Shown here: piece after piece, positions 48,840 through 62,229 of the stretch
How the letters are laid out: every line of letters begins with the position of its first letter
Numbering within the stretch: the first letter of the stretch is position 1
NCBI GenBank assembly: GCA_017302435.1
Contig: JAFLDL010000002.1
Location: 124,001 to 188,000, forward strand
Source of the DNA: Candidatus Accumulibacter necessarius
GTDB taxonomy: Bacteria > Pseudomonadota > Gammaproteobacteria > Burkholderiales > Rhodocyclaceae
Reading direction: 5' to 3'
Length of the DNA: 64,000 nucleotides
Translations under genes and position numbers: made by a program
The notes under the pieces: model-generated
Seen by the model: the letters and a program-made list of their open reading frames with translations, nothing else
What the model was told of the DNA's origin: nothing
Databases searched by the model: none

Positions 48840-48868
48840 TTGCATTCACTGTCCTGTGGCCCTAACAT
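48840..48868 (+). promoter_or_regulatory. Promoter of the TetR-fadE operon
   Basis: TTGCAT at 48840-48845 and TAACAT at 48863-48868 are spaced 17 bases. Both hexamers are imperfect, but the operator palindrome begins at the very next base, exactly as at the FadN promoter, which supports the assignment. Confidence 0.55.
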
Positions 48869-48884
48869 TAAAACGAACGTTTGA
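48869..48884 (+). promoter_or_regulatory. PsrA-type operator upstream of the TetR gene
   Basis: The 16-mer TAAAACGAACGTTTGA matches the reverse complement of the site at 58475-58490 at 15 of 16 positions. Its AAAC-N4-GTTTG core fits the published PsrA consensus. The position immediately behind the -10 box would block transcription, giving autoregulation of the regulator and the fad genes behind it. Confidence 0.7.
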
Positions 48885-48948
48885 ACGAAATGGTTCGGCA
48901 GAGTCATCAGAGTTCTCCCGCATCCGCTTTAACTGGATCATCTGTCCA

Positions 48949-49746
48949 ATGTCTGATCAAAAAAATGGCAGCGATACCCGCGAACGCATCCTTGACGTGG
49001 CCGAACGTCTGTTCATGGAGAACGGCTACGAGGCGACGTCGATGCGTACCATCACGAGCGCGGCCGAGGCCAATCTGGCGGCGGTGAACTACCACTTCGG
49101 GTCGAAAGAGGCTTTGCTGCGCGAGGTCTTCCGGCGTCGCCTTGCCTGGCTCAACCACGAGCGCTTGCAGGCACTTGACAAGCTTGAGGAGCAGGCTGCC
49201 GGGGCGCCGCTCAAGCCGTCACAGATCCTCGAAGCCTTTTTCGGCACGCTGTTGCGCATGGGTGAGAATCCGGCCCTGGGTGGGATGGTTTTTCTGCGCC
49301 TGCTTGGCCGTACGCTGACCGAGCCCGCCGAGTTCATTCGGACCTTTTTCGCCGGCGAGTATGCCGAGGTAATCGATCGCTACAAGCTCGCCCTCTTCAG
49401 TGCCTTGCCCGACGTGCCGAAAGCGGAGATTGTCTGGCGCCTGCATTTCATGCTCGGCGCCATGTCCTACGCCATTGCTGGCACCGATGTGTTGCAGGTC
49501 GTCACCGGTTGCGAGGTGGGCGATCTGGCTGGCGAAAAGGCGACTGATGAGACCGACGACACGGTGTTGGCGAGACGGCTGGCGCAGCGGCTGATGCCTT
49601 TCCTGCTCGGCGGTCTGCGGGCACCGTTGCCGCAGTTTGACGACCTCCAGAGAATACAAAAAGAGCCGCTGCCCAAGACGGCCCGAGATACGCGGGGCAA
49701 CGGCCCCAACCAAGACCCAAGACCCAAGACCCAAGACCAGCAATAA
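48949..49746 (+). CDS. TetR-family regulator, PsrA-like
   Basis: This 265-residue repressor has an N-terminal TetR helix-turn-helix (TRERILDVAERLFMENGYE, then ITSAAEANLAAVNYHFGSK), very similar in pattern to PsrA, the long-chain-fatty-acid-responsive regulator of beta-oxidation in pseudomonads. The rest is a ligand-binding helical domain. ATG 48949 is preferred; in-frame codons upstream to 48736 run through the operator and promoter. fadE follows 12 bases after the stop, so it heads the operon. The 3' end contains four tandem CAAGACC units that encode an unusual QDPRPKTQDQQ tail. Confidence 0.88.
   Translation: MSDQKNGSDTRERILDVAERLFMENGYEATSMRTITSAAEANLAAVNYHFGSKEALLREVFRRRLAWLNHERLQALDKLEEQAAGAPLKPSQILEAFFGTLLRMGENPALGGMVFLRLLGRTLTEPAEFIRTFFAGEYAEVIDRYKLALFSALPDVPKAEIVWRLHFMLGAMSYAIAGTDVLQVVTGCEVGDLAGEKATDETDDTVLARRLAQRLMPFLLGGLRAPLPQFDDLQRIQKEPLPKTARDTRGNGPNQDPRPKTQDQQ
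49711..49738 (+). repeat. (CAAGACC)4 tandem repeat at the 3' end of the TetR gene
   Basis: Four perfect copies of the 7-mer CAAGACC lie within the last ten codons of the regulator. Seven is not a multiple of three, so gain or loss of a unit by slippage would shift the frame of the C-terminal tail and move the stop codon relative to the fadE ribosome-binding site. Confidence 0.8.
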
Positions 49747-49758
49747 GGAGAAGCAGCA

Positions 49759-52110
49759 ATGATCACAACGATCGTCTCGATAGTCACCGGTGTCACACTG
49801 GTGAGTCTTGCCGTGCTGTTCAGTGTTCGTCCCTTGCGACGAGCGCTGGTCAGCCGGCCGGTTTTCCGTACCTACAAGCGGATTCTGCCGCAGATGTCCG
49901 AAACAGAGCGCGTCGCGCTTGAAGCAGGCACCGTCTGGTGGGATGGCGAACTGTTCCGCGGTAACCCCGACTGGAACAAACTGCTCGCCTATCCGGTGCC
50001 GAAACTGACCGCCGAAGAGCAGTCCTTCATGGACAACGAGGTCGAGCAGGCCTGTGCCTTGGTGGATGATTGGCAGGTAACGAGCGAGTTGAACGACCTG
50101 CCGTCAGAGGCATGGCAGTACATCAAGGACAAAGGCTTCCTCGGCATGATCATCCCGAAGAAGTATGGTGGCCTGCAGTTCTCGGCCTATGCTCACTCGC
50201 AGATTGTCACCAAACTGTCGACGCGTTGCTCGGCACTGTCGGTGTCGGTGATGGTGCCCAACTCACTGGGCCCGGCCGAACTGCTGTTGCACTACGGCAC
50301 CGAAGCACAGAAAAACCATTACCTGCCCCGGCTGGCGAAGGGTATCGAGATTCCAGCTTTCGCGCTGACCAGCCCGTGGGCGGGTTCCGACGCCGGGTCG
50401 ATCCCGGACGTCGGCATCGTCTGCAAGGGCATCTGGCAAGGCAAGGAAGTGCTGGGGATGCGGGTGACCTGGGACAAGCGTTACATCACGCTCGGCCCGG
50501 TCTGCACCATCCTGGGCCTGGCTTTCCACCTGTACGACCCGGATGGCCTGCTCGGCGGCAAAAAGCATGTCGGCATCACCTGTGCGCTGGTACCGCGTGA
50601 TACCCCCGGTGCCGAGATCGGCCGTCGCCACTTTCCGCTGAACGCCATGTTCATGAATGGCCCGACGCGTGGCAAGGATGTCTTCATGCCGCTCGACTAC
50701 GTGATAGGCGGGCCGGCGATGGTTGGGCAGGGGTGGCGCATGCTGATGGAGTGTCTGGCGGCGGGCCGCTCGATCTCGCTACCGTCGTCGAACACCGGTA
50801 TGGCTCAGCTGACGGCGCGCAGCGTCGGTGCCTATGCGCGCGTGCGCAGCCAGTTCAAGATGGCGATCGGGCGTTTCGAGGGTGTCGAGGAACCGCTGAC
50901 CCGGATCGGCGCCTACACTTACATGATGGACGCCGTGCGCAAGATGACGGCGGGTGCCATCGACCTCGGCGAAAAGCCGTCGGTGGTCTCGGCGATCGCC
51001 AAATACCATGTGACCGAGCGTGCCCGCCAGGTGGTCAATGACGGCATGGACATCGTCGGCGGCAAGGGCATCTGTCTTGGTCCCTCGAACTTTATCGGCC
51101 GAGCCTATCAGCAGATCCCGATCGGCATCACCGTGGAAGGGGCCAACATCCTGACGCGCAGCATGATCCTCTTTGGCCAGGGTGCCATCCGCTGTCACCC
51201 GTATGTGCTGAAGGAGATGAAAGCGGCTTTCAACCCGGATGGCGAGCAGGGGCTGCGCGACTTCGACCAGGCCTTGTTCGGGCATCTGGTATTCACCATC
51301 AGGCACGCCTTCGGAGCGCTGGGCAAGGGCCTGACCGGATCGCATTTCGTCTCCGTGCCAGCCAATGTCGCCCCGGAAACCCGACGTTACTATCAACAGC
51401 TTACCCGCTTCTCCTCAGCCTTTGCCTTCCTCGCCGATATCTCGATGCTGGTCCTCGGTGGTGAGCTGAAGCGTCGCGAGAAACTCTCGGCGCGACTTGG
51501 CGACATTCTGTCGATGCTTTACCTTTGCTCGGCCACGCTCAAGCGCTACGAGTCGGAAGGTCGCCAGCAGGCCGATGCGCCGTTGATGCACTGGGCGATG
51601 TGGGACGCAATGTACAAGGCGCAGATGGCTTTCGACGGGGCCATTGCCAATTTCCCGGTACGCTGGATTGGGCGCATGCTCTACCGGCTCGTTTTTCCGC
51701 TCGGTCATCCCTACGACGTGCCTTCGGACCGGATTGGTCACCAGGTGGCAAAACTGCTGATCGAGCCGTCGGCTGCACGCGACCGCCTGACTGCCGAAGC
51801 CTATCTGCCCAAGGTCGAGGGCGAAGCCGTCGGCGCCCTGGAACTGGCGCTTGCGGCAACCATTGAAGCCGAACCGATCGAGGCCAAGATTCGCGCCGCC
51901 GAAAAGAGCGGTGTACTGGTGGACAATCCAGACGCCAATGTCCGCGACCTGGCACATGCGGCCTTTGCCGCAGGTATCGTGACCCCGGCAGAGTATGCCG
52001 TGCTCAAGCGGCGCAACGAACTGCGCGACATCGTGATCCGGGTCGACGACTTCCCGCATGACCTTGGCCGCACGCGGCAGCAGCCCCTGCTGCACAAAGC
52101 CGCAGCGTAG
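49759..52110 (+). CDS. fadE: Acyl-CoA dehydrogenase, FadE family
   Basis: This 783-residue enzyme catalyses the first, FAD-dependent step of beta-oxidation. It has the N-terminal membrane segment (about residues 5-25) and extended C-terminal region that distinguish FadE (814 residues in E. coli) from ordinary 380-residue dehydrogenases. GFLGMIIPKKYGGLQFSAYA and TSPWAGSDAGS lie in the catalytic core. It starts at ATG behind AAGGAG, 12 bases after the TetR stop, and is followed by the thiolase after 87 bases containing a hairpin. Confidence 0.93.
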   Translation: MITTIVSIVTGVTLVSLAVLFSVRPLRRALVSRPVFRTYKRILPQMSETERVALEAGTVWWDGELFRGNPDWNKLLAYPVPKLTAEEQSFMDNEVEQACALVDDWQVTSELNDLPSEAWQYIKDKGFLGMIIPKKYGGLQFSAYAHSQIVTKLSTRCSALSVSVMVPNSLGPAELLLHYGTEAQKNHYLPRLAKGIEIPAFALTSPWAGSDAGSIPDVGIVCKGIWQGKEVLGMRVTWDKRYITLGPVCTILGLAFHLYDPDGLLGGKKHVGITCALVPRDTPGAEIGRRHFPLNAMFMNGPTRGKDVFMPLDYVIGGPAMVGQGWRMLMECLAAGRSISLPSSNTGMAQLTARSVGAYARVRSQFKMAIGRFEGVEEPLTRIGAYTYMMDAVRKMTAGAIDLGEKPSVVSAIAKYHVTERARQVVNDGMDIVGGKGICLGPSNFIGRAYQQIPIGITVEGANILTRSMILFGQGAIRCHPYVLKEMKAAFNPDGEQGLRDFDQALFGHLVFTIRHAFGALGKGLTGSHFVSVPANVAPETRRYYQQLTRFSSAFAFLADISMLVLGGELKRREKLSARLGDILSMLYLCSATLKRYESEGRQQADAPLMHWAMWDAMYKAQMAFDGAIANFPVRWIGRMLYRLVFPLGHPYDVPSDRIGHQVAKLLIEPSAARDRLTAEAYLPKVEGEAVGALELALAATIEAEPIEAKIRAAEKSGVLVDNPDANVRDLAHAAFAAGIVTPAEYAVLKRRNELRDIVIRVDDFPHDLGRTRQQPLLHKAAA

Positions 52111-52131
52111 CTGGCCATCGCGGCAAACCCG

Positions 52132-52159
52132 GAGGCACGGAGCATCTGTTCCGTGCCTC
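52132..52159 (+). other. Intercistronic hairpin between fadE and fadI
   Basis: A perfect 10-bp stem GAGGCACGGA / TCCGTGCCTC with an 8-base loop is followed by TTCTT only. It may act as a weak terminator or mRNA-stability element that sets fadE against downstream genes. Confidence 0.5.
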
Positions 52160-52197
52160 TTCTTGCACCGGGCGCCAGCATCAGAAAAGGAGATAAA

Positions 52198-53514
52198 GTG
52201 GGATTTCAGCCGGTTTACGTCGTGGATGGCGCCCGCACGCCATTCCTCAAGGGACGCAACGCGCCAGGGCCATTCGCGGCGAGTGATCTGGCGGTGCAGG
52301 CCGGGCGCGCACTACTCATTCGCCAACCCTTCGCGCCGACCCAACTCGACGAGGTGATCCTCGGCTGCGCCAGTCCCTCGGCCGACGAGGTGAATATCGC
52401 TCGGGTCGTGGCCCTGCGTCTGGGCTGCGGCAACCAGATGCCGGCATGGACGGTGATGCGCAACTGTGCCAGCGGCATGCAGGCGATCGATTCGGCAATC
52501 GCCAACATCCAGAACGGACGCTCGCAACTGGTACTCGCCGGCGGTGTTGATGCCCTGTCGCATGCGCCGCTGCTCTACAACGAGGCGATGGTGCGCTGGT
52601 TTGGACAGATGATGCAGGCCAGGACAATGGCTAAGAAGGTCGCCATGTTTGCCCGTCTGCGCCCGTCACAGCTGCTGTCGCCGGTGATCGGGATCCTCAA
52701 GGGTCTGACTGACCCGGTGATTGGCCTGCTGATGGGGCAGACCGCGGAGAACCTTGCCTGGCGCTTCGCCATCTCGCGTCAGCAGATGGACGAATACAGC
52801 GTGCGCAGCCACCAGCGCGCGGTGGCAGCCCGCACCGCCGGGCGTCTCGGCGAGATCGTTCCTGTGGTCGATGCCAGGGGCAAGGTCCATGCGGAGGACG
52901 ACGGCGTCCGTGCCGATTCGAGCCTGGCCGGTCTTGGGAAGCTCAAGCCCTTCTTCGACCGCAAGTACGGCCGGGTGACCCCGGGCAACAGCTCGCAGAT
53001 CACCGACGGCGCGGCGTGGCTGATCCTGGCCTCCGAGGCTGCGGTCGACCAGTGGCAACTGGCGCCGCTCGGCCGGATCACCGACAGCCAGTGGGCCGGC
53101 CTTGACCCAGCGCAGATGGGACTTGGCCCGGTGCATGCCGCGACGCCGATCCTGCAGCGGCATCGGCTCAGCCTCGACGACATCGACCTGTGGGAAATCA
53201 ACGAAGCCTTCGCCGCGCAGGTGCTTGGCTGTCTCGCCGCCTGGGAATCGGACGAGTACTGCCGAGAGCAGCTCGGCTTGCCGGGGGCTCTGGGTGCACT
53301 GTCCCACGATCGTCTCAACGTGGACGGCAGCGCGATTGCGGTCGGCCACCCGGTCGGAGCGTCCGGAGCACGCATCGTCCTGCACCTGCTGCAGGCGCTG
53401 CGTGCGGCCAAGGCAACGCGCGGCATCGCCGCGATCTGCATTGGCGGTGGTCAGGGTGGCGCCATGCTGATTGAAACGATCAGCCGAGAACAGGCCAAAC
53501 GGGAAAATCAATGA
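52198..53514 (+). CDS. fadI: Acetyl-CoA acyltransferase (thiolase), FadI-like
   Basis: This 438-residue thiolase cleaves 3-ketoacyl-CoA to acetyl-CoA and a shortened acyl-CoA. The nucleophilic cysteine is C90 in NCASGMQ; INEAFAAQ, GHPVGASG and the late cysteine in CIGGGQGG complete the active site. The ARTMAKKVAMFARLR loop resembles E. coli FadI (436 residues). GTG 52198 is chosen because AAGGAG lies five bases upstream; in-frame codons back to 52153 run into the hairpin. Its stop overlaps the next start by four bases. Confidence 0.92.
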   Translation: MGFQPVYVVDGARTPFLKGRNAPGPFAASDLAVQAGRALLIRQPFAPTQLDEVILGCASPSADEVNIARVVALRLGCGNQMPAWTVMRNCASGMQAIDSAIANIQNGRSQLVLAGGVDALSHAPLLYNEAMVRWFGQMMQARTMAKKVAMFARLRPSQLLSPVIGILKGLTDPVIGLLMGQTAENLAWRFAISRQQMDEYSVRSHQRAVAARTAGRLGEIVPVVDARGKVHAEDDGVRADSSLAGLGKLKPFFDRKYGRVTPGNSSQITDGAAWLILASEAAVDQWQLAPLGRITDSQWAGLDPAQMGLGPVHAATPILQRHRLSLDDIDLWEINEAFAAQVLGCLAAWESDEYCREQLGLPGALGALSHDRLNVDGSAIAVGHPVGASGARIVLHLLQALRAAKATRGIAAICIGGGQGGAMLIETISREQAKRENQ

Positions 53515-55439
53515 CCATCAATCGCAACAACGGTAGCCAACAGCACTGGCAGCTCGAGGTCGATGCCCAGGGGCTGGCGTGGGCGACGCTGAACAAGGCT
53601 GGCGAGTCGACCAACTCCCTTTCCAGTGCGGTAATGGAGGAACTCTCGCAGCTGCTGGATCATCTCGACCGTAGCCCGCCGAAGGGGCTGATCTTCCGCT
53701 CCGGGAAGGCGGCCGGCTTCATCGCGGGTGCCGACATCCAGGAGTTCACCCAGCTCGATACGCCGGAGAAAGGAATTGAACTCGTGTCGCGCGGCTGGCA
53801 GTTGTTCAATCGTTTGGCCGGGGTATCGTATCCGACGCTGGCGCTGGTGCGTGGTCACTGCCTTGGCGGTGGGCTGGAACTGGCGCTTGCCTGCCGTTAT
53901 CTGCTGGCCGTGGACGAACCGTCAACCCGGATGGGTCTACCGGAGGTCATGCTCGGTATCGTCCCGGGCTGGGGTGGCATGTTGCGTCTGCCTGAGCGCA
54001 TCGGTCCGCAGGCAGCGCTGGACATGATGCTGACCGGCAAGACGATCGACGCCAGCAAGGCCAGACGCCTCGGCCTCGCCGACGACTGCGTGCCGCCGCG
54101 GGTCATGGACAGCGCCGCGGCATTGCTGGTGCTTGCCAATCAGCCGCGCCGTCGTCCCCCCTTGCTGCAGCGCCTGCTCAACGGTCCCCTCAAGGCTCTG
54201 GTGGCCAGCGGCGCCAGGAAGCAGGTCGCCCGGCGCGCGCGTCGCGAGCACTATCCGGCGCCCTACGCGATCATCGACATCTGGGCTCGCCACCAGGGCA
54301 ATGCGCTGGCCGCTCCCGAGCTGATCGACAGCATCGTCCGGTCGCCAACGGCGCGCAATCTGGTCCGCGTGTTTTTCCTGCAGGAGCGCCTCAAGAGTTT
54401 CGGCAAAGCGAGTACCTTCGAGGCCAAACGCGTGCATGTCGTTGGCGCCGGCGTCATGGGCGGCGACATCGCCGCCTGGTGTGCACAGCGCGGGCTGACC
54501 GTCACCCTGCAAGATCAGGGGATGGAGCGAATCGCGCCCGCCCTCCAGCGAGCGTACGCCGCCTGGAGTCGGCGGGTCAGGGATGCGCGCGAGTTGCGCA
54601 AGATCATGGATCGCCTGATTCCCGATCCCGAAGGGCACGGTGCACGCCAGGCCGACGTGGTGATCGAGGCGATTTTCGAGGACACCGCGGCCAAGCAGGC
54701 CCTGCTCCAGCAGCTCGAAGCGCGCATCAGGCCGGACGCAGTGCTGGCGACCAATACCTCGAGCCTGCGCATCGAGGACCTGCGGACGGTGCTGGCAAGG
54801 CCGGAACGGCTGATTGGAATCCACTTCTTCAACCCGGTAGCCAGGATGCCGCTGGTTGAAGTCGTTGCCGCCGACGGTGCAGACCCCGAAATGCTTCAGC
54901 GCGGCACCGCTTTCGTCAGGCAGATCGACCGCCTGCCGCTGCCGGTGAAGAGCGCGCCCGGCTTCCTGGTCAACGCCGTCCTCGGGCCCTACATGCTTGA
55001 GGCAATGCGCGCCGTCGACGAGGGCCTGGCGCCGGCGACCGTGGACGAAGCGATGCTTGCCTTCGGCATGCCGATGGGCCCGATCGAACTGGTCGACATG
55101 GTCGGGCTTGACGTCGCGATGGCCGCCGGGCGGAGCCTCGCCGGGGCCGAGCCACCCAAGTGCCTGCTTGAGCGTTTCAACGCGGGTGATCTCGGCAAGA
55201 AAACCGGTCGGGGCTTTTACGAGTACGGCAGTGGCCGTACGGTCAAGGGCGCGGCGGGGTCAGTGCCGGCGGGTCTGGCCGAACGCCTGGTCAAGCCGCT
55301 GCTCGAACGCACGCAGCAGCTGGTCAGTGACGGGATCGTTGTCGACGCCGACCTGGCCGACGCCGGAGTCATTTTCGGTACCGGCTTTGCGCCGTTCACC
55401 GGCGGACCGCTCAATTACCTGAGGCGTCAGCATGGCTGA
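53511..55439 (+). CDS. fadJ: Enoyl-CoA hydratase/3-hydroxyacyl-CoA dehydrogenase (FadJ/FadB type)
   Basis: This 642-residue bifunctional enzyme performs hydration and NAD-dependent oxidation of enoyl-CoA. The hydratase domain is N-terminal (GHCLGGGLELALACRY near 115-130) and the dehydrogenase domain follows with VHVVGAGVMGGDIAAW near 307 and GIHFFNPVARMPL. It is somewhat shorter than E. coli FadJ (714). It overlaps the thiolase (ATGA) and the thioesterase gene (8 bases), so fadI-fadJ form a translationally coupled complex pair. Confidence 0.92.
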   Translation: MTINRNNGSQQHWQLEVDAQGLAWATLNKAGESTNSLSSAVMEELSQLLDHLDRSPPKGLIFRSGKAAGFIAGADIQEFTQLDTPEKGIELVSRGWQLFNRLAGVSYPTLALVRGHCLGGGLELALACRYLLAVDEPSTRMGLPEVMLGIVPGWGGMLRLPERIGPQAALDMMLTGKTIDASKARRLGLADDCVPPRVMDSAAALLVLANQPRRRPPLLQRLLNGPLKALVASGARKQVARRARREHYPAPYAIIDIWARHQGNALAAPELIDSIVRSPTARNLVRVFFLQERLKSFGKASTFEAKRVHVVGAGVMGGDIAAWCAQRGLTVTLQDQGMERIAPALQRAYAAWSRRVRDARELRKIMDRLIPDPEGHGARQADVVIEAIFEDTAAKQALLQQLEARIRPDAVLATNTSSLRIEDLRTVLARPERLIGIHFFNPVARMPLVEVVAADGADPEMLQRGTAFVRQIDRLPLPVKSAPGFLVNAVLGPYMLEAMRAVDEGLAPATVDEAMLAFGMPMGPIELVDMVGLDVAMAAGRSLAGAEPPKCLLERFNAGDLGKKTGRGFYEYGSGRTVKGAAGSVPAGLAERLVKPLLERTQQLVSDGIVVDADLADAGVIFGTGFAPFTGGPLNYLRRQHG

Positions 55440-55830
55440 CATCGTCACCGTCTTGCCGAGCAGGCAACCGACCCTGCGGGTCATGCCGATGCCCTCCGAA
55501 GTCAACCCGCAGGGTGACGTCTTTGGCGGCTGGATCATGGCGCAGGCAGACGTGGCCGGCGCGATTCCCGCGATGCACCGGGCACTTGGCCGTGTGACCA
55601 CGGTGGCGGTGAATTCCTTCCTCTTCAAGCAGCCGGTGTCGGTCGGCGACGTCGTCAGTTTCTTTGCCGAAGTGGTCAGCATCGGCCGCACTTCGATCAC
55701 CGTCAGGGTCGAGGTCTACGCAGAACGCCACCCGGCGCAGCCGATCGTCGTCAAGGTCACCGAAGCGGTACTCACTTATGTGGCAATCAACCAACACGGT
55801 GAGAAGCGGGAACTGCCAGACGCTCGTTAA
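55432..55830 (+). CDS. Acyl-CoA thioesterase, YciA-like hotdog protein
   Basis: This 132-residue hotdog-fold thioesterase hydrolyses acyl-CoA. NPQGDVFGGWIMAQADVAG contains the catalytic-aspartate helix and the following conserved segment of the YciA/BACH family. The C-terminal 70 residues include VGDVVSFFAEVVSIGRTS. It starts inside the end of fadJ, which ties it to beta-oxidation, perhaps to free CoA under overload. A decayed copy of its 3' half lies at 56731-56937 beyond the toxin-antitoxin pair. Confidence 0.92.
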   Translation: MADIVTVLPSRQPTLRVMPMPSEVNPQGDVFGGWIMAQADVAGAIPAMHRALGRVTTVAVNSFLFKQPVSVGDVVSFFAEVVSIGRTSITVRVEVYAERHPAQPIVVKVTEAVLTYVAINQHGEKRELPDAR

Positions 55831-55958
55831 GCCGGCATCACCTGCGGTGCGAACCGTGCCCCGCCTGCCAGGGCAAGGGCTGGGCGCAAATGGGTCTCAG
55901 ATTGGGTCGTTGCACTCAAGAACGATTTTCCCTCACAAGTCCCTTGATGCATTAACAT

Positions 55959-55978
55959 ATTGGTGTCAAAGCACCAAT
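55959..55978 (+). promoter_or_regulatory. Inverted repeat before the antitoxin gene, likely operator
   Basis: ATTGGTG at 55959-55965 and CACCAAT at 55972-55978 form a perfect 7-bp inverted repeat with a 6-base spacer, ending 11 bases before the antitoxin start. Ribbon-helix-helix antitoxins normally bind such sites to repress their own operon. No clear -35/-10 pair was found. Confidence 0.5.
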
Positions 55979-55989
55979 GTGAGGCTGGC

Positions 55990-56229
55990 ATGAGCCGTCT
56001 GACCATCACCCTGTCCGAAGCCCGCTACCGCGCGCTCAAAGAAGCATCCGCGCAGCGGGACAAGACCATCGGGCAACTGATCGACGAGAGCCTAGACTTC
56101 TACGGTATCAAGTCGCGTGCGGACGCGCGCGACCTTGTGCGGCGCGCGCGAGAACACAGCAAGCTCACCGAAGACCAGGCGGTGGCGGTGGCCGAGGAGC
56201 AAGTTCGGGCCGTTCGCCGCAAGTCGTGA
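55990..56229 (+). CDS. Ribbon-helix-helix antitoxin-like protein
   Basis: This 79-residue protein starts MSRLTITLSEARYRALKEA, the beta-strand and first helix of a ribbon-helix-helix DNA-binding fold, followed by a helical tail rich in charged residues that would embrace the toxin. ATG 55990 is preferred over in-frame codons upstream that run through the inverted repeat. It overlaps the PIN gene by four bases (GTGA), the standard coupling of type II toxin-antitoxin pairs. Confidence 0.8.
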   Translation: MSRLTITLSEARYRALKEASAQRDKTIGQLIDESLDFYGIKSRADARDLVRRAREHSKLTEDQAVAVAEEQVRAVRRKS

Positions 56230-56672
56230 GCCGCCAGGCAGTCATCGTCGACACGAACGTCGTCGTGGCCGGCCTGCTGACGGCGCACGCAGCGTCGCCC
56301 GTCGCCCGCATCCTCGACGGCATGCTCGCCGCTGTGTTTCCCTTTGTCGTGTCCGAGGCACTGCTGGCCGAGTACCGCATGGTGCTTCTGCGGCCGAACC
56401 TGCGCCAGCTGCATGGGCTGGCGGTTGCCGAAGTGGAAACCATCTTGACCGACATGGCTCAGCACGCGATCGAGCTGGCCCCCGTCGCCGCCCCGCCTGC
56501 TCCCGATCCGGGTGATCAATTGCTGTGGGATCTGCTCACAGCGAGGGCAGACTTAGCTCTTGTCACGGGCGACAAGCTGCTGCTCAAGGATCCGGGCATG
56601 CACGGGCGGGTGATTTCGCCGCGCGAGTTTGTGGCTGCGGTGTGGCCAACCCTGAGGCAGAACGTACCATGA
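56226..56672 (+). CDS. PIN-domain ribonuclease toxin
   Basis: This 148-residue PIN-fold protein is of the 'putative toxin component, PIN family' type (COG1569). The acidic metal ligands are D9 in VIVDTNVVV, E44 in VSEALLAEY, D97 in PGDQLL and D116 in VTGDKLL, so the active site looks complete. It starts with GTG overlapping the antitoxin stop. RNA cleavage is inferred from the family, and the target is unknown. It separates the intact thioesterase gene from a decayed paralogue. Confidence 0.82.
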   Translation: MSRQAVIVDTNVVVAGLLTAHAASPVARILDGMLAAVFPFVVSEALLAEYRMVLLRPNLRQLHGLAVAEVETILTDMAQHAIELAPVAAPPAPDPGDQLLWDLLTARADLALVTGDKLLLKDPGMHGRVISPREFVAAVWPTLRQNVP

Positions 56673-56686
56673 TCGTCGACGCTCAG

Positions 56687-56937
56687 TGCTCGCCGGCAGC
56701 GCGCAATCTCGTGCGGGTCTTCTTCATGCGCTTCAAGCAGCCGGTGTCGGTCGGCGACGTCGTCCGTTCTTTGCCGAAGTCGTCGAAACCGGCCGCACTT
56801 CGATCATCGTCAGGGTCGAGGTCTACGCCGAACGCCACCCGGCGCAGCCGATCACCGTCAAGGTGACCGAGGCAGTGCTCACCGATGTTGCAGTAAACCA
56901 ACATGGGTAGAAGAGAGAGCTGCCAAGTGCCGAATAA
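56687..56937 (+). pseudogene. Decayed fadJ-thioesterase remnant
   Basis: This stretch is a mosaic of two fragments. The first part encodes RNLVRVFF, as does an internal piece of the fadJ-type gene near 54355. From 56731 the DNA is a close copy of the last 208 bases of the thioesterase gene (55623-55830), with one base lost near 56769 that shifts the frame and an early TAG at 56908-56910. Alignment resumes up to the same TAA stop at 56935-56937. It is a non-functional relic of a paralogous fad-thioesterase pair with a large internal deletion. Confidence 0.8.
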
Positions 56938-56991
56938 GTGAGGATTTTTCTGGACAATCGTCTTAGCATAAGGCTTCAGATTGCTATTGAC

Positions 56992-57011
56992 GCGTGGCGA
57001 AAAAGCCACGC
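56992..57011 (+). other. Hairpin in the FadL leader
   Basis: GCGTGGC (56992-56998) and GCCACGC (57005-57011) pair around a GAAAAA loop, 28 bases before the fadL-type start. It could influence mRNA stability; no known regulatory class was recognised. Confidence 0.35.
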
Positions 57012-57039
57012 CCCGATCACATTCACAGGGGAGTTCAAC

Positions 57040-58350
57040 ATGTCGCACAAGATATCGATGAAGATGATCCCGGCGCTTTTGCTGGCGGCCTTGTCAGGTA
57101 CAGCGGGCGCGTCAGGTTTTCAGCTGCTGGAGCAGGGCAGCGGCCTGGGCAATGCCTACGCCGGTTCCGCAGCGAAGGCAAACGATGCCAGTACGATTTT
57201 CTGGAACCCGGCGGGAATGACGCAATTGCAGGCGCGAGAAGTCTCCGGTGGTCTGACGGCGGTGAGGCCCAGTTTCAAGTTCGATAACGACGGTTCACAG
57301 GTTGGCGGTTTCAATACGGCCGGTGATGGCGATGATGCCGGCAGCTGGGCATTTATTCCGAATGCCTATATCTCGTGGGCTCTCAGCAAGGATCTCTACA
57401 TTGGCTTGGGAATCGGCGGACCTTTCGGCAACGCAACCAAGTACGACAAGCCGTGGATTGGCAGTGCGCAGTCGGACGAGTTTGACATCAAGACGATGAA
57501 TATCAACCCCTCGATCGCCTATCGGGTCAACGATATGGTTTCGCTCGGCGCCGGCGTGAGCTGGCAGAAGATCGAGGCGGATTATTATCGCCAAGTGGGA
57601 ATATTGGGTAACCTGCCGCGCGTGGAATCGCACATGAGCATCAGTGACGACGCCTGGGGCTGGAACCTCGGCGCGTTGTTCACCCTCTCTCCGACGACCA
57701 AGGTGGGGGTATCCTATCGTTCGACCATCCAGTATCACACTGACGGCAAGGTCAAGCTGAGCGGTGATGGCACCGCGGCGGGCAATGCAACCGCGAATGC
57801 CCTGCGCGCTGCCGGTGGCCAGAGCGACGTGAAAGCGGATCTCGAGGTGCCGGATACCTTCATCGTCAGCGTGACGCAGAAGCTGAGCGATCGCTGGGAG
57901 ATGCTGGGAGACATTTCATGGACCGGTTGGAGTTCGATCAAGAACGTCGACATCATCCGCACTTCTGGGCCGCTCACTGGCGGGACGGCACAGGTCCTGG
58001 AGGCAGATTTTCAGGATACCTACCGCGTGGCCCTCGGGGCGAACTACACTTATTCGGACGCACTCAAGTTCATGTTCGGCCTGGCCTACGATCAGACGCC
58101 AGTCAAGAAGGCGTCCACCCGTCTGACTTCCTTGCCTGATAACGATCGGACCTGGTTTACCCTCGGTGCCCAATGGAAGCCGGCCAGGGAACAGACGCTT
58201 GAACTCGGTGCCGCGTACCTGTATATCCCCAAGACCAAGATCAACCAGGACGAGACCAGCTTGAATCCGCTCACGAATCGTGGGTGGGTAATTGGCGACT
58301 ACAGCTCAAGCGTGTGGATTCTCGGCGCCCAGTACTCGCTGGCTTTCTAG
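57040..58350 (+). CDS. Outer-membrane long-chain fatty acid transporter, FadL/OmpP1 family
   Basis: This 436-residue beta-barrel precursor has a signal peptide to about residue 24 (KMIPALLLAALSGTAGA) and then the mature N-terminus SGFQLLEQGSGLGNAYAG with a downstream FWNPAGM motif, both FadL hallmarks. The C-terminus ends in a hydrophobic aromatic residue (QYSLAF), as required for barrel insertion. ATG 57040 follows GGGGAG; an in-frame extension from 56938 would hide the signal. Placed between two beta-oxidation operons, it probably imports long-chain fatty acids. A strong terminator follows. Confidence 0.92.
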   Translation: MSHKISMKMIPALLLAALSGTAGASGFQLLEQGSGLGNAYAGSAAKANDASTIFWNPAGMTQLQAREVSGGLTAVRPSFKFDNDGSQVGGFNTAGDGDDAGSWAFIPNAYISWALSKDLYIGLGIGGPFGNATKYDKPWIGSAQSDEFDIKTMNINPSIAYRVNDMVSLGAGVSWQKIEADYYRQVGILGNLPRVESHMSISDDAWGWNLGALFTLSPTTKVGVSYRSTIQYHTDGKVKLSGDGTAAGNATANALRAAGGQSDVKADLEVPDTFIVSVTQKLSDRWEMLGDISWTGWSSIKNVDIIRTSGPLTGGTAQVLEADFQDTYRVALGANYTYSDALKFMFGLAYDQTPVKKASTRLTSLPDNDRTWFTLGAQWKPAREQTLELGAAYLYIPKTKINQDETSLNPLTNRGWVIGDYSSSVWILGAQYSLAF

Positions 58351-58370
58351 TCGCGCCAGGCAGTTTGCCC

Positions 58371-58401
58371 AAAAAAGCCCCGGATTCCGGGGCTTTTTTT
58401 T
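58371..58401 (+). terminator. Intrinsic terminator after the FadL-type gene
   Basis: GCCCCGG/CCGGGGC forms a GC-rich stem between six As upstream and eight Ts at 58394-58401. The symmetry would allow termination on both strands. Confidence 0.92.
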
Positions 58402-58446
58402 GGCCAGCACCGGTGAAGTCTCCCTGTCCTTCCCGCCCTGTCGGAG

Positions 58447-58474
58447 TTGACGTCGTGGGCAGATCGCGTATAAT
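58447..58474 (+). promoter_or_regulatory. Promoter of the FadN-type operon
   Basis: TTGACG at 58447-58452 and a perfect TATAAT at 58469-58474 are spaced 16 bases. Transcription would begin near 58481, inside the operator, leaving an about 78-base leader before the TTG start. Confidence 0.75.
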
Positions 58475-58490
58475 TCAAACGTTCGTTTGA
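58475..58490 (+). promoter_or_regulatory. PsrA-type operator upstream of the FadN-type gene
   Basis: TCAAACG and CGTTTGA are perfect inverted arms around TT, giving CAAAC-N4-GTTTG, the PsrA consensus form. It begins at the base after the -10 hexamer and covers the expected start site, so a bound repressor would block initiation. The site at 48869-48884 is its near-identical partner. Confidence 0.75.
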
Positions 58491-58558: not shown

Positions 58559-60946
58559 TTGAGCAACTTCATCGTACGCAAGGCCGCAGTACTCGGAGCG
58601 GGCGTGATGGGCGCGCAGATTGCCGCGCACCTCGCGAATGCCGAAGTGCCGGTGGTGCTTTTCGACCTGCCGGCCAAGGAAGGCGATCCCACCGGGATCG
58701 TCAGGAAAGCCATTGACGCGCTCAAGAAGCTCGAGCCGTCGCCGCTGGCCACGAAAGACCGCGTCGCCTACATCGACGCCGCCAATTACTCGCAGCACCT
58801 GGATCAACTCAAGGACTGCGACCTGATCATCGAAGCCATCGCCGAGAAGACCGAGTGGAAAGACGATCTCTATCGCAAGATCTCTCCCTTCATCTCGCCC
58901 GATGCGATCGTCGCTTCGAACACCTCCGGCCTGTCGATCAACCGCCTGTCGGAGGGTCTGCCGGAAGCACTGCGTTCACGCTTCTGCGGCATCCATTTCT
59001 TCAACCCGCCGCGCTACATGCACCTGGTTGAACTGATCGCGACCCGGACCACCGACCCGGCGCTGCTCGACAACCTCGAGTCGTGGTTGGTCTCGCGTCT
59101 CGGCAAAGGCGTCGTTCGGGCGCTGGATACGCCCAACTTCGTTGCCAATCGCGTCGGTGTTTTCTCGATTCTCGCCGTGATGCATCACACCCAGCGTCTC
59201 GGTCTTGGCTTCGACGTCGTCGATTCGCTGACCGGTCCGATTATCGGTCGCCCGAAGAGCGCCACCTACCGCACCGCCGATGTCGTCGGGCTCGATACGC
59301 TGGCGCACGTCATCAAGACCATGCAGGACACCCTGCCCGACGACCCCTGGCACGGCTACTACGGCGTGCCGGCATGGCTGGCGGCGCTGATCGGCAAGGG
59401 CGCGCTGGGGCAGAAGACGCGCGGCGGTATCTTCCGCAAGGACGGCCGGGCAATCAAGGTCCTCGACCTCGCGCTTCAGGACTATCGTGACAGCGCTGGC
59501 GACATCGACCCGACGGTGCTGGCGATCCTCAAGAACCGCAATCCGGCCGAGAAGTTTGCCCAGTTGCGGGCCAGCGAGCATCCGCAGGCGCAATTCCTGT
59601 GGGCGATCTTCCGCGACATTTTCCACTACGCTGCCTTCCATCTCGCCGACATCGCTGACAACGCGCGCGACCTCGACTTCGCGATGCGCTGGGGTTTCGG
59701 CTGGGCACAGGGTCCGTTCGAAAGCTGGCAGGCCGCCGGCTGGCAGGCGATCGCCGAAGCGGTCAAGGCTGACATCGACGCCGGCCTGACAATGAGCCCG
59801 GTAGCGCTGCCGGCGTGGGTCTTTGGCCAGGTTGCCCAGCAAGGTGTGCATACCGCACAAGGCTCGTATTCGGCGAGCGCCGACGCCTACCGGCCGCACT
59901 CGACGCTGCCCGTCTATCAGCGGCAGATCTTCCCCGAACGGGTGCTGGGCGAGAAGACGGTTGCCGGTGAAACGGTCTGGGAAAACGAGGGCGTTCGCCT
60001 GTGGACGCTGCCCCAGGTCGACGCTGGCATCGCTATCGTCAGCATCAAGTCGCGCAATCATACGCTTGGCCGTGACGTCATCATTGGCTTGCAGGAAGCT
60101 GTGGCGCGAGCCGAGGCCGATTATCAGGGACTGGTGCTGTGGCATGAGGCGCCGTTTGCCTTTGGCGCCAACCTCAAGGAGGTCGCCGAAGCAATCGCCG
60201 CCGGCGAGTTCGAACTGCTCGCGACGTACGTCGCCGAGTTCCAGAACGCGTCGATGTGCCTCAAGTATGCCAAGGTCCCGGTGATCGCTGCCGTGCAGGG
60301 CATGGCGCTGGGTGGCGGTTGCGAGTTTGTCATGCACGCCGCCAAGCGGGTGATCGCCCTCGAAAGCTACATCGGCCTGGTCGAAGCCGGCGTCGGCCTG
60401 ATCCCGGCTGGCGGCGGCTGCAAGGAGTTTGCCATCCGTGCCGCGCAGCACGCGGCCAGGACCGGCGGCAACGATCCCTTCGAGTTCCTCCAGCCGGTAT
60501 TCATGACCATCGCCATGGCGACGGTGTCGAAAAGCGGCGCGCAGGCCAAGGAACTCGGTTTTGCCGTCGAGTCGGACAAGATCGTCTTCAATGCCAATGA
60601 ACTGCTCTACGTCGCGCTGCGAGAGGCGCGCGGCCTCGCCGAGGCGGGCTACCATCCGCGGCTGTCGCCGCGTGGCATCAAGGTTGCCGGGCGCACCGGC
60701 ATCGCCAACTGCGTGATGATGCTGGCCAACATGAAGGAAGGCGGCATGATTTCGGCGCACGACTACGCGGTGGCCAAGGCGGCAGCGACGGCGCTCTGTG
60801 GTGGCGATATCGAGACCGGATCACTGGTCGATGAGCAGTGGCTGCTGACTGTCGAGCGCAAGCTCTTCGTCGAGCTGCTGCAGAACCCGAAAACCCAGCA
60901 GCGTATCCAGCACATGCTGGAAACCGGCAAGCCGCTGCGTAATTGA
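58559..60946 (+). CDS. 3-Hydroxyacyl-CoA dehydrogenase/enoyl-CoA hydratase, FadN type
   Basis: This 795-residue bifunctional enzyme has the domains in the reverse order to FadJ. The dehydrogenase comes first (AAVLGAGVMGAQIAAH near residues 8-23, GIHFFNPPRY near 143). The hydratase is C-terminal (QGMALGGGCEFVMHA near 579). This is the arrangement of Bacillus FadN (about 790). It starts at TTG 58559 behind AAGGAGGA; in-frame codons back to 58487 would lie across the transcription start. A thiolase gene follows 20 bases downstream. Confidence 0.92.
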   Translation: MSNFIVRKAAVLGAGVMGAQIAAHLANAEVPVVLFDLPAKEGDPTGIVRKAIDALKKLEPSPLATKDRVAYIDAANYSQHLDQLKDCDLIIEAIAEKTEWKDDLYRKISPFISPDAIVASNTSGLSINRLSEGLPEALRSRFCGIHFFNPPRYMHLVELIATRTTDPALLDNLESWLVSRLGKGVVRALDTPNFVANRVGVFSILAVMHHTQRLGLGFDVVDSLTGPIIGRPKSATYRTADVVGLDTLAHVIKTMQDTLPDDPWHGYYGVPAWLAALIGKGALGQKTRGGIFRKDGRAIKVLDLALQDYRDSAGDIDPTVLAILKNRNPAEKFAQLRASEHPQAQFLWAIFRDIFHYAAFHLADIADNARDLDFAMRWGFGWAQGPFESWQAAGWQAIAEAVKADIDAGLTMSPVALPAWVFGQVAQQGVHTAQGSYSASADAYRPHSTLPVYQRQIFPERVLGEKTVAGETVWENEGVRLWTLPQVDAGIAIVSIKSRNHTLGRDVIIGLQEAVARAEADYQGLVLWHEAPFAFGANLKEVAEAIAAGEFELLATYVAEFQNASMCLKYAKVPVIAAVQGMALGGGCEFVMHAAKRVIALESYIGLVEAGVGLIPAGGGCKEFAIRAAQHAARTGGNDPFEFLQPVFMTIAMATVSKSGAQAKELGFAVESDKIVFNANELLYVALREARGLAEAGYHPRLSPRGIKVAGRTGIANCVMMLANMKEGGMISAHDYAVAKAAATALCGGDIETGSLVDEQWLLTVERKLFVELLQNPKTQQRIQHMLETGKPLRN

Positions 60947-60966
60947 GCGAGCAAGGAGAACAGAAC

Positions 60967-62169
60967 ATGAGCAAACAGATTCAGGAAGCCTACATCGTTG
61001 CCGCGACGCGCCTGCCGGTGGGTCGGCGCAAGGGCCTGCTGGGCCACGTCCGGCCGGACGACATGCTGGCGCATGCCATCCGATCGGTCATGGCGCAGGC
61101 GCCGGGGCTTGACCCGGCACTGGTCGAGGACGTGATAGTCGGTTGTGCGATGCCGGAAGCCGAGCAGGGGATGAACGTCGCCCGTATCGGCCTGCTGCTC
61201 GCCGGCATGCCGGACACGGTCCCCGGCGTCACCATCAATCGCTTCTGCGCTTCCGGGGTGCAGACCGTGGCCATGGCAGCCGATCGCATCCGTCTGGGTG
61301 AAGCCGACGTGATGATCGCCGGCGGCACCGAAACGATGTCCTTGATGAACCAGATGATGGGCAACAAAATTGCGATGAACCCGGCAATTTTCGAGCTGGA
61401 AGAGAACTACGCGATTGGCTTCGGAATGGGCATCACGGCCGAAAAGGTTGCCGCGCAGTGGAAGGTTTCGCGCGAAGAACAGGATGCTTTTGCCGTTGCC
61501 TCGCACCAGAAGGCCTGTGCGGCGATCGCCGCCGGCCACTTCAAGGCCGAGATTTCGCCTTACGCAGTCACCGCGCGGTTGCCGAATCTGCGTACCGGCG
61601 AAGTGACCGTCAAGGAGTACCTGGCCGAGACCGACGAGGGACCGCGCCCCGACAGCAGTCTCGAGGGGCTCGCCAGACTGCGGCCGGTGTTTGCCGCGCG
61701 CGGCACGGTAACGGCCGGCAACAGCTCGCAGATGTCGGATGGCGCAGCCGCCGTGCTGGTCGTTTCGGAAAAGATCCTCAAGCAGTTCAATCTCAAGCCG
61801 CTGGCGCGCTTTGCCGGTTACTCGGTTGCCGGTGTGCCGCCAGAGATCATGGGCATCGGCCCGATCAAGGCAATTCCCCAGGTGCTCAAGCAGGCCGGCA
61901 TCGGTTTGGCCGAGGTGGACTGGATCGAGCTCAACGAGGCTTTTGCCGCGCAGGCACTGGCGGTGATCCGTGAGCTGGATCTCGATCCGGCCAGGGTGAA
62001 TCCGCTCGGTGGCGCCATCGCCCTCGGCCATCCGCTGGGCGCGACCGGAACCATTCGAACGGCGACGGTGGTGCATGGCCTGCAGCGCACCCGGCAGCGT
62101 TACGGCCTGGTCACCATGTGCATCGGTACCGGCATGGGCGCAGCGGGGTTGTTCGAATCGATCCAGTAG
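60967..62169 (+). CDS. Acetyl-CoA acyltransferase (thiolase), FadA type
   Basis: This 400-residue thiolase partners the FadN-type enzyme. C94 in FCASGVQ is the acyl-accepting nucleophile; ELNEAFAAQ, GHPLGATG and the second cysteine in CIGTGMG complete the site. ATG 60967 is used with AAGGAG upstream. It differs clearly from the FadI-like thiolase at 52198-53514 (shorter, without the ARTMAKK loop), so the two beta-oxidation operons are not simple recent duplicates. An intrinsic hairpin follows. Confidence 0.92.
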   Translation: MSKQIQEAYIVAATRLPVGRRKGLLGHVRPDDMLAHAIRSVMAQAPGLDPALVEDVIVGCAMPEAEQGMNVARIGLLLAGMPDTVPGVTINRFCASGVQTVAMAADRIRLGEADVMIAGGTETMSLMNQMMGNKIAMNPAIFELEENYAIGFGMGITAEKVAAQWKVSREEQDAFAVASHQKACAAIAAGHFKAEISPYAVTARLPNLRTGEVTVKEYLAETDEGPRPDSSLEGLARLRPVFAARGTVTAGNSSQMSDGAAAVLVVSEKILKQFNLKPLARFAGYSVAGVPPEIMGIGPIKAIPQVLKQAGIGLAEVDWIELNEAFAAQALAVIRELDLDPARVNPLGGAIALGHPLGATGTIRTATVVHGLQRTRQRYGLVTMCIGTGMGAAGLFESIQ

Positions 62170-62189: not shown

Positions 62190-62229
62190 GAGGCCTCGCC
62201 GGGTTTCCCGGCGAGGCCTCTTCCGTTTT
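62190..62229 (+). terminator. Terminator hairpin after the thiolase gene
   Basis: A 14-base perfect inverted repeat (62190-62203 with 62207-62220) is followed by TTCCGTTTT. The stem is very stable, but the T-run is broken and weak. Confidence 0.7.

Follow-up and report, generated by a model that had tools for sequence, protein, structure and literature searches.

Candidatus Accumulibacter is a leading phosphorus-removing organism of wastewater plants. We analyzed a stretch of 64,000 nucleotides from Candidatus Accumulibacter necessarius (contig JAFLDL010000002.1, positions 124,001 to 188,000; the window), in which a TetR-family regulator gene heads a fadE operon and a second operon encodes a FadN-type multifunctional enzyme and a thiolase. 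A 16-bp near-palindrome lies in the promoter region of each operon, and both beta-oxidation operons are very probably controlled by an autoregulated PsrA-type repressor, the product of the TetR gene. The finding is carried by the two sites and their position in the promoters, by their parallel conservation, which holds even without linkage, and by the relationship of the regulator protein to PsrA. The scheme is already known from Pseudomonas. The Accumulibacter case is a new example with a compact, well-conserved two-operator layout, which is of interest to the Accumulibacter specialist and no surprise to the PsrA specialist. It defines a specific, testable fatty-acid switch for Accumulibacter with its only two near-consensus targets named. 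Among the literature matches listed, covered in part and by title, none dealt with this regulon in Accumulibacter or the Rhodocyclaceae.

Operators, promoters and the regulator

Site 1 is TAAAACGAACGTTTGA and site 2 is TCAAACGTTCGTTTGA (Table 1). The reverse complement of site 2, TCAAACGAACGTTTGA, is equal to site 1 at 15 of 16 bases and different at one position, and each 16-mer starts at the base following a -10 hexamer. Both observations had been made in a sequence-only reading of this DNA and were confirmed directly at the two loci. The same reading assigned the form CAAAC-N4-GTTTG to the pair. This form is exact in site 2 only, whereas the left half of site 1 is AAAAC, one base off, and the same holds for the broader operator form C/GAAAC-N2-4-GTTTG/C.

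The FadN promoter was listed as strong in the promoter scan. The promoter of the regulator operon was absent from the list of this consensus scan, its -35 hexamer TTGCAT being weak. A hairpin with a T run, not contained in the list of the terminator scan, separates fadL from the FadN promoter, so that the FadN operon would have its own transcription start.

To determine how rare the motif is, the genome (4.56 Mb, 88 contigs) was searched with the reversed pattern as control. The core AAACGNNCGTTT occurred at three places compared to four for the control; both sites are intergenic and the third place lies within a biotin carboxylase gene. TNAAACRNNYGTTTNA was likewise found at three places, namely the two sites and one within a sugar-transferase gene, compared to none for the control. 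Frequent occurrence at random positions, which the sequence-only reading had foreseen as an objection, was thus not observed for near-perfect matches. Two further sites with two mismatches (L009 and L010) both lie within long open frames. Judged from these patterns, the two operators probably make up the whole near-consensus regulon in this genome. A wider regulon was rejected on the basis of three patterns, because the extra near-consensus places examined were coding (mutL, the sugar transferase, a PEP-CTERM protein and the biotin carboxylase); this rejection is confined to near-consensus sites with fewer than three mismatches.

The regulator consists of TetR_N and TetR_C_30 domains (Pfam), and its closest relatives in named records belong to Candidatus Accumulibacter (91% to Ca. 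Accumulibacter contiguus). Among solved structures, the best relative was 2fbq (E=1.4e-32 with phmmer, 3.4e-49 with a profile), which is P. aeruginosa PA3006, that is PsrA (PMC10304680). Foldseek comparison of the AlphaFold model (predicted local distance difference test, pLDDT, 86.7) also placed 2fbq at rank 1 by E-value (E 5e-9). In the reverse search with a PsrA segment the regulator gene came first in the genome with 115.6 bits and 39% identity, followed by the next TetR gene with 33.4 bits. The likeness to PsrA, noticed for the N-terminus in the sequence-only reading, extends to a best reciprocal match, and these comparisons support the assignment of the TetR protein as a PsrA-type regulator.

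Conservation of the two sites in the genus and the family

Within the genus (28 genomes), TNAAACRNNYGTTTNA had at least one match in every genome, with 56 matches in total compared to 7 for the reversed control. Of these, 25 lie before the regulator gene, 26 before FadN and 5 elsewhere. The three genomes without TNAAACRNNYGTTTNA on the regulator side carry CAAAACGAACGTTTGA, with C as first base, at this place; the regulator site is present in 28/28 and the FadN site in 26/28 genomes. No FadN-side match was found in G155 and G163, where the FadN gene itself was not sought. Of the five other matches, one is that in the sugar-transferase gene already mentioned, two fall in open frames of G125 and G158 that are similar in length, one precedes an additional TetR-FadE pair in G168 and one lies at a further place in G158. 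The pair of G168 (L289) is 58% and 62% identical to that of the window and possesses its own PsrA-type site two mismatches from the consensus. In G155 the regulator gene is in two pieces (G155:C27:189247-189964), either broken or mis-assembled.

Mean column conservation reached 0.97 within the operator, its centre left out, compared to 0.44-0.69 in the flanks. The FadN operator adjoins TATAAT or TACAAT, with TTGAC upstream, in 26/26 genus sequences. On the regulator side, a TA...T hexamer with an upstream TTGC hexamer adjoins the operator in 24 of 25 sequences, the exception being G163 (L277). Read along transcription, the operator centre is AA at the regulator (25/25) and TT at FadN (26/26), demonstrating that the two operators stand in mirror orientation. 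Furthermore, the FadN operator persists where the two operons are not closely linked, since the two sites are 34 kb apart in G018, and in G062 and G147 fadN with its own site lies ~27 kb and ~20 kb from tetR.

In the family set of 150 genomes the regulator (called at E <= 1e-30) was present in 97 and FadN (E <= 1e-150) in 100 genomes, own genome included. Of the 97, 79 relatives and the window were analyzed (n=80) and 17 relatives were left out. Upstream regions of at least 150 bp were scored for TetR matches above 150 bits and FadN matches above 400 bits, five second TetR paralogues being kept apart. In 69 of the 80 regions fadE follows the regulator, and the order regulator-fadE-thiolase-fadJ-(thioesterase)-fadL-fadN-thiolase is common among the regions that reach far enough. 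A site with at most two mismatches was found upstream of the regulator in 69/80 and with at most three in 79/80. In contrast, only 4 of 4489 control segments of the same loci contained a site with at most two mismatches, an upper figure as these segments may still contain other true sites (Fisher p ~1e-135, relatedness ignored). The 80 named-record loci, which partly overlap the family set and extend to Achromobacter and Bordetella, gave 71/80 and 79/80 at the same two thresholds. An operator in the regulator's own promoter, as known for PsrA, was thus found in 79/80 sequences of either set. The operator base counts were built from 78 family sites.

The FadN side is more restricted. A scored FadN gene is present in 54 of the 80 regions. 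Among the best FadN matches 19/30 have the site, and it is present with at most one mismatch in all 14 whose FadN identity is 79% or more, a group that contains the window's own FadN. In the named-record loci a FadN site with at most two mismatches occurred in 22/43; where the record title names a genus, it is Accumulibacter, Dechloromonas or Azonexus, and the remaining titles stop at family level or above. It is absent from all nine Achromobacter and Bordetella loci with FadN. The strict pattern CAAACGNNCGTTTG, which site 1 does not fit, occurred in 45/150 family genomes, namely in 37/97 with the regulator compared to 8/53 without it (Fisher p 0.003); many of the matches lie at a great distance from the regulator gene. 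Altogether, the two-operon regulon and the autoregulatory site predicted in the sequence-only reading are supported by the 28 genomes of the genus and by about 80 loci of the family.

A proposed fatty-acid switch and its alternatives

We propose that the PsrA-type repressor would bind, as a dimer, to two 16-bp near-palindromes TNAAACGNNCGTTTNA, one located in its own promoter, which drives tetR-fadE-thiolase-fadJ-thioesterase, and the other in the fadN-thiolase promoter. With its start immediately behind the -10 hexamer, each operator spans about -6 to +10, where RNA polymerase would be blocked by a bound dimer. Upon uptake of fat, long-chain fatty acids or their coenzyme A (CoA) esters would release the repressor and both beta-oxidation sets would be switched on together. 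Because the repressor gene is part of the induced operon, its own level would rise and the switch would close again, constituting a negative feedback. It is the binding, repression, ligand and induction in this switch that we infer, with oleoyl-CoA or a long-chain fatty acid as the candidate ligand.

In P. aeruginosa, PsrA is reported to bind C/GAAAC-N4-GTTTG/C at fadBA5 and fadE PA0506 and to be released by long-chain fatty acids (PMC5722320), and in P. putida it is described as negatively autoregulated (PMC13104628). The window system shares with the Pseudomonas regulon (PA3006, 2fbq) the TetR sequence and fold group, the operator form and the kind of target, which in Pseudomonas includes a fadE and a fadBA operon; beta-oxidation genes are found behind both operators. 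Differences concern the proteins, which are 39% identical, and the layout: in the window the fadE operon begins with the regulator gene, the second of the two targets is a multifunctional gene of the FadN type, and the genome yielded no additional near-consensus target. Smlt2053 of Stenotrophomonas is reported to autorepress its own fadBA operon and to sense long-chain fatty acids (PMC10304680). Like the window regulator, the Xanthomonadales PsrA orthologues Smlt2053 and XAC2014 are encoded at the head of a beta-oxidation operon that is preceded by a PsrA-type palindrome. Their operon is regulator-fadB-fadA, whereas the window regulator heads fadE and is proposed to act in trans on the second operon. 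TfmR (XAC3052) of Xanthomonas citri is reported as a TetR repressor of fadE from which long-chain fatty acids cause release (PMC6637906). The TfmR gene, compared by description only, is divergent from the fadE operon, in contrast to the window regulator as first gene of its operon.

Several results weigh against a PsrA-type repressor acting on exactly these two operons. The PsrA equivalog NF053516 (TranRepPrsAVib) of NCBIfam, although the best of 16 models listed, gave 154 bits and missed its cut-off of 300; as it is by name a Vibrio model, this excludes that equivalog and not the wider PsrA group. The fold match to 2fbq has a modest template modelling (TM) score of 0.54/0.65, below that of NicR2 chains. 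Allowing up to three mismatches from TCAAACGNNCGTTTGA, the motif was not enriched in the genome (125 places compared to 186 for the control) or in the window (3 found, 2.79 expected), so that its significance rests on near-perfect matches and cross-species conservation. Within 250 bp upstream of 55 family FadN genes, window included, a site with at most one mismatch was present in only 13, from which the FadN arm appears lineage-specific.

In an improbable alternative, the regulator would be a member of the FadP group among the betaproteobacterial TetR regulators instead of a PsrA, and would act on beta-oxidation in the same way. FadP, compared by description only, is likewise a betaproteobacterial TetR protein that regulates beta-oxidation (PMC5343134, PMC12543098); 12 operons are reported for it in Ralstonia solanacearum (PMC12543098), compared to two sites here. 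In Ralstonia, Burkholderia and Comamonadaceae it is predicted to regulate the degradation of fatty acids, and in the account given there PsrA is absent from these groups or controls fatty-acid synthesis (PMC5343134). However, the best solved relative and reciprocal match of the window regulator is PsrA, and the operator fits the published PsrA consensus. PsrA was reportedly predicted in betaproteobacteria by Kazakov in 2009, a prediction consistent with PMC5343134.

Still less probable is a regulator that controls its own operon only; a different member of the TetR family would then bind the FadN site, and the two sites would resemble each other by inheritance or convergence. Local control of fadN may exist elsewhere, as in six family loci (L101, L118, L126, L129, L135 and L141) the gene immediately preceding fadN encodes a further PsrA-like TetR paralogue (37-42% identity), and in L118 and L126 a site one mismatch from the consensus lies ~184-211 bp upstream of fadN, between paralogue and fadN. 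The regions upstream of the second paralogues themselves lack the motif, all five scored having 6-7 mismatches. Moreover, the window's genome contains no close paralogue of the regulator, the next match reaching just 24.4 bits, and operators 1 and 2 share their consensus in 26 genus genomes. It is scarcely credible that the 16-mers represent conserved promoter elements, or palindromes arisen by chance, on which no repressor acts: they do adjoin the -10 hexamer in both promoters, but the 16-mer before tetR persists across the family despite a differing distance to the start, control segments rarely match, and the sequence has the palindromic form of a dimer site as well as a match to a known operator.

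Returning to the PsrA-type repressor, its gene is located directly before FadN-thiolase in five regions (L105, L112, L117, L127 and L146). Across the family fadN is wired in three ways, by an operator for a distant PsrA-type regulator, by a local paralogue or by the regulator directly in front, and the sequences suggest that the FadN operon was rewired repeatedly within one family. It is conceivable, at somewhat less than an even chance, that the Accumulibacter PsrA regulon shrank to just two operators in mirror orientation. Its fadN arm would be joined in trans there and in Dechloromonas- and Azonexus-like genomes, whereas in other relatives a local TetR paralogue or the PsrA-type gene itself precedes fadN. 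A single gate for fatty acids would then serve two redundant beta-oxidation modules, with the storage-polymer cycle drawing on the same acyl-CoAs. If this is true, the link to storage would be made direct by relatives that carry PsrA-type sites in front of phasin genes.

Storage genes, fadD, fadL and neighbouring genes

The sequence-only reading had pointed to competition with polyhydroxyalkanoate (PHA) storage. This is plausible in an indirect manner, since deletion of psrA is reported to lower PHA in Pseudomonas putida (PMC9049629) and the same lever may matter for the split of acyl-CoAs between burning and storage. Direct support was not obtained in the window's genome, where the best site at five phasin loci (PF09361) and two fadD loci had 4-5 mismatches anywhere in 3-4.4 kb. 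PHA genes and fadD were therefore ruled out as direct targets in this genome.

In relatives, sites before phasin and fadD genes were picked by eye from the match list and represent leads, not a rate. In G049, sites one mismatch from the consensus lie at most ~180 bp upstream of two phasin genes (L292 and L293); the site of L292 is shared with a divergent open frame that flanks it opposite the phasin gene. From the sequence, a direct link of fatty-acid sensing to PHA granules is possible in that genus. In genus g42 (G042 and G098) a perfect TCAAACGNNCGTTTGA precedes fadD (L294, L296) and a chemoreceptor-like gene (L295, L297), labeled chemotaxis-like by NCBIfam in L297 and by likeness of its start in L295; the regulon thus seems larger there. 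The fadL gene of the window has no near-consensus operator of its own, and the window contains no further site with at most two mismatches. In six relatives (L060, L061, L063, L064, L096 and L141) such a site was found at or before fadL.

Table 1. Features of the two beta-oxidation operons and the region between them (window coordinates).
Feature	Position	Strand	Evidence or remark
Promoter of the regulator operon	48840..48868	+	-35 TTGCAT 48840-48845, spacer 17 bp, -10 TAACAT 48863-48868; read from sequence
Operator 1 (putative autoregulatory), TAAAACGAACGTTTGA	48869..48884	.	directly after TAACAT
TetR-family regulator, PsrA type, 265 aa	48949..49746	+	NCBIfam, PDB, Pfam and fold evidence
Acyl-CoA dehydrogenase FadE	49759..52110	+	NCBIfam PRK09463, 1174 bits, cut-off passed
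Acetyl-CoA C-acyltransferase (thiolase, PRK08170 type; 'FadI' of the sequence-only reading)	52153..53514	+	771 bits, cut-off passed
FadJ-like enoyl-CoA hydratase / 3-hydroxyacyl-CoA dehydrogenase, 642 aa	53511..55439	+	PRK11154, 461 bits, under equivalog cut-off; ECH_1 N-terminal, 3HCDH C-terminal
YciA-like hotdog acyl-CoA thioesterase	55432..55830	+	NCBIfam 121 bits, under equivalog cut-off; Pfam 4HBT
FadL-like outer-membrane fatty-acid transporter, between both operons	56938..58350	+	profile match
Intrinsic terminator-like hairpin, FadL / FadN-promoter boundary	58369..58403	+	fold energy -21.2 kcal/mol, z -3.5, T run
Promoter of the FadN operon	58447..58474	+	TTGACG 58447-58452, spacer 16 bp, TATAAT 58469-58474; 11/12 consensus positions
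Operator 2 (putative), TCAAACGTTCGTTTGA	58475..58490	.	mirror orientation relative to operator 1; directly after TATAAT
FadN-type 3-hydroxyacyl-CoA dehydrogenase (N-terminal) / enoyl-CoA hydratase (C-terminal), 795 aa	58559..60946	+	Pfam order 3HCDH_N, 3HCDH, ECH_1; best NCBIfam model under cut-off
Acetyl-CoA C-acyltransferase (PRK09052 type)	60943..62169	+	711 bits, cut-off passed
Terminator-like hairpin after the PRK09052-type thiolase	62190-62220		promoter/terminator scan

In the gene order fadE-fadI-fadJ-thioesterase given for the first operon by the sequence-only reading, the name FadI is loose, as the protein reached 771 bits with PRK08170 compared to 252 bits with the FadI model TIGR02446 (cut-off 712). 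We take FadN to be the name for the domain order 3HCDH_N, 3HCDH, ECH_1.

Between the thioesterase and FadL genes, an open frame for a putative small antitoxin (55990-56229), for which Pfam gave no match, is followed by a gene for a PIN-domain protein (56241-56672, PF13470). At 56731-56931, after the PIN gene, a truncated second copy of the C-terminal part of the thioesterase is present, ~87% identical over 196 bp, as if the antitoxin/PIN insertion had arrived together with the duplicated thioesterase fragment.

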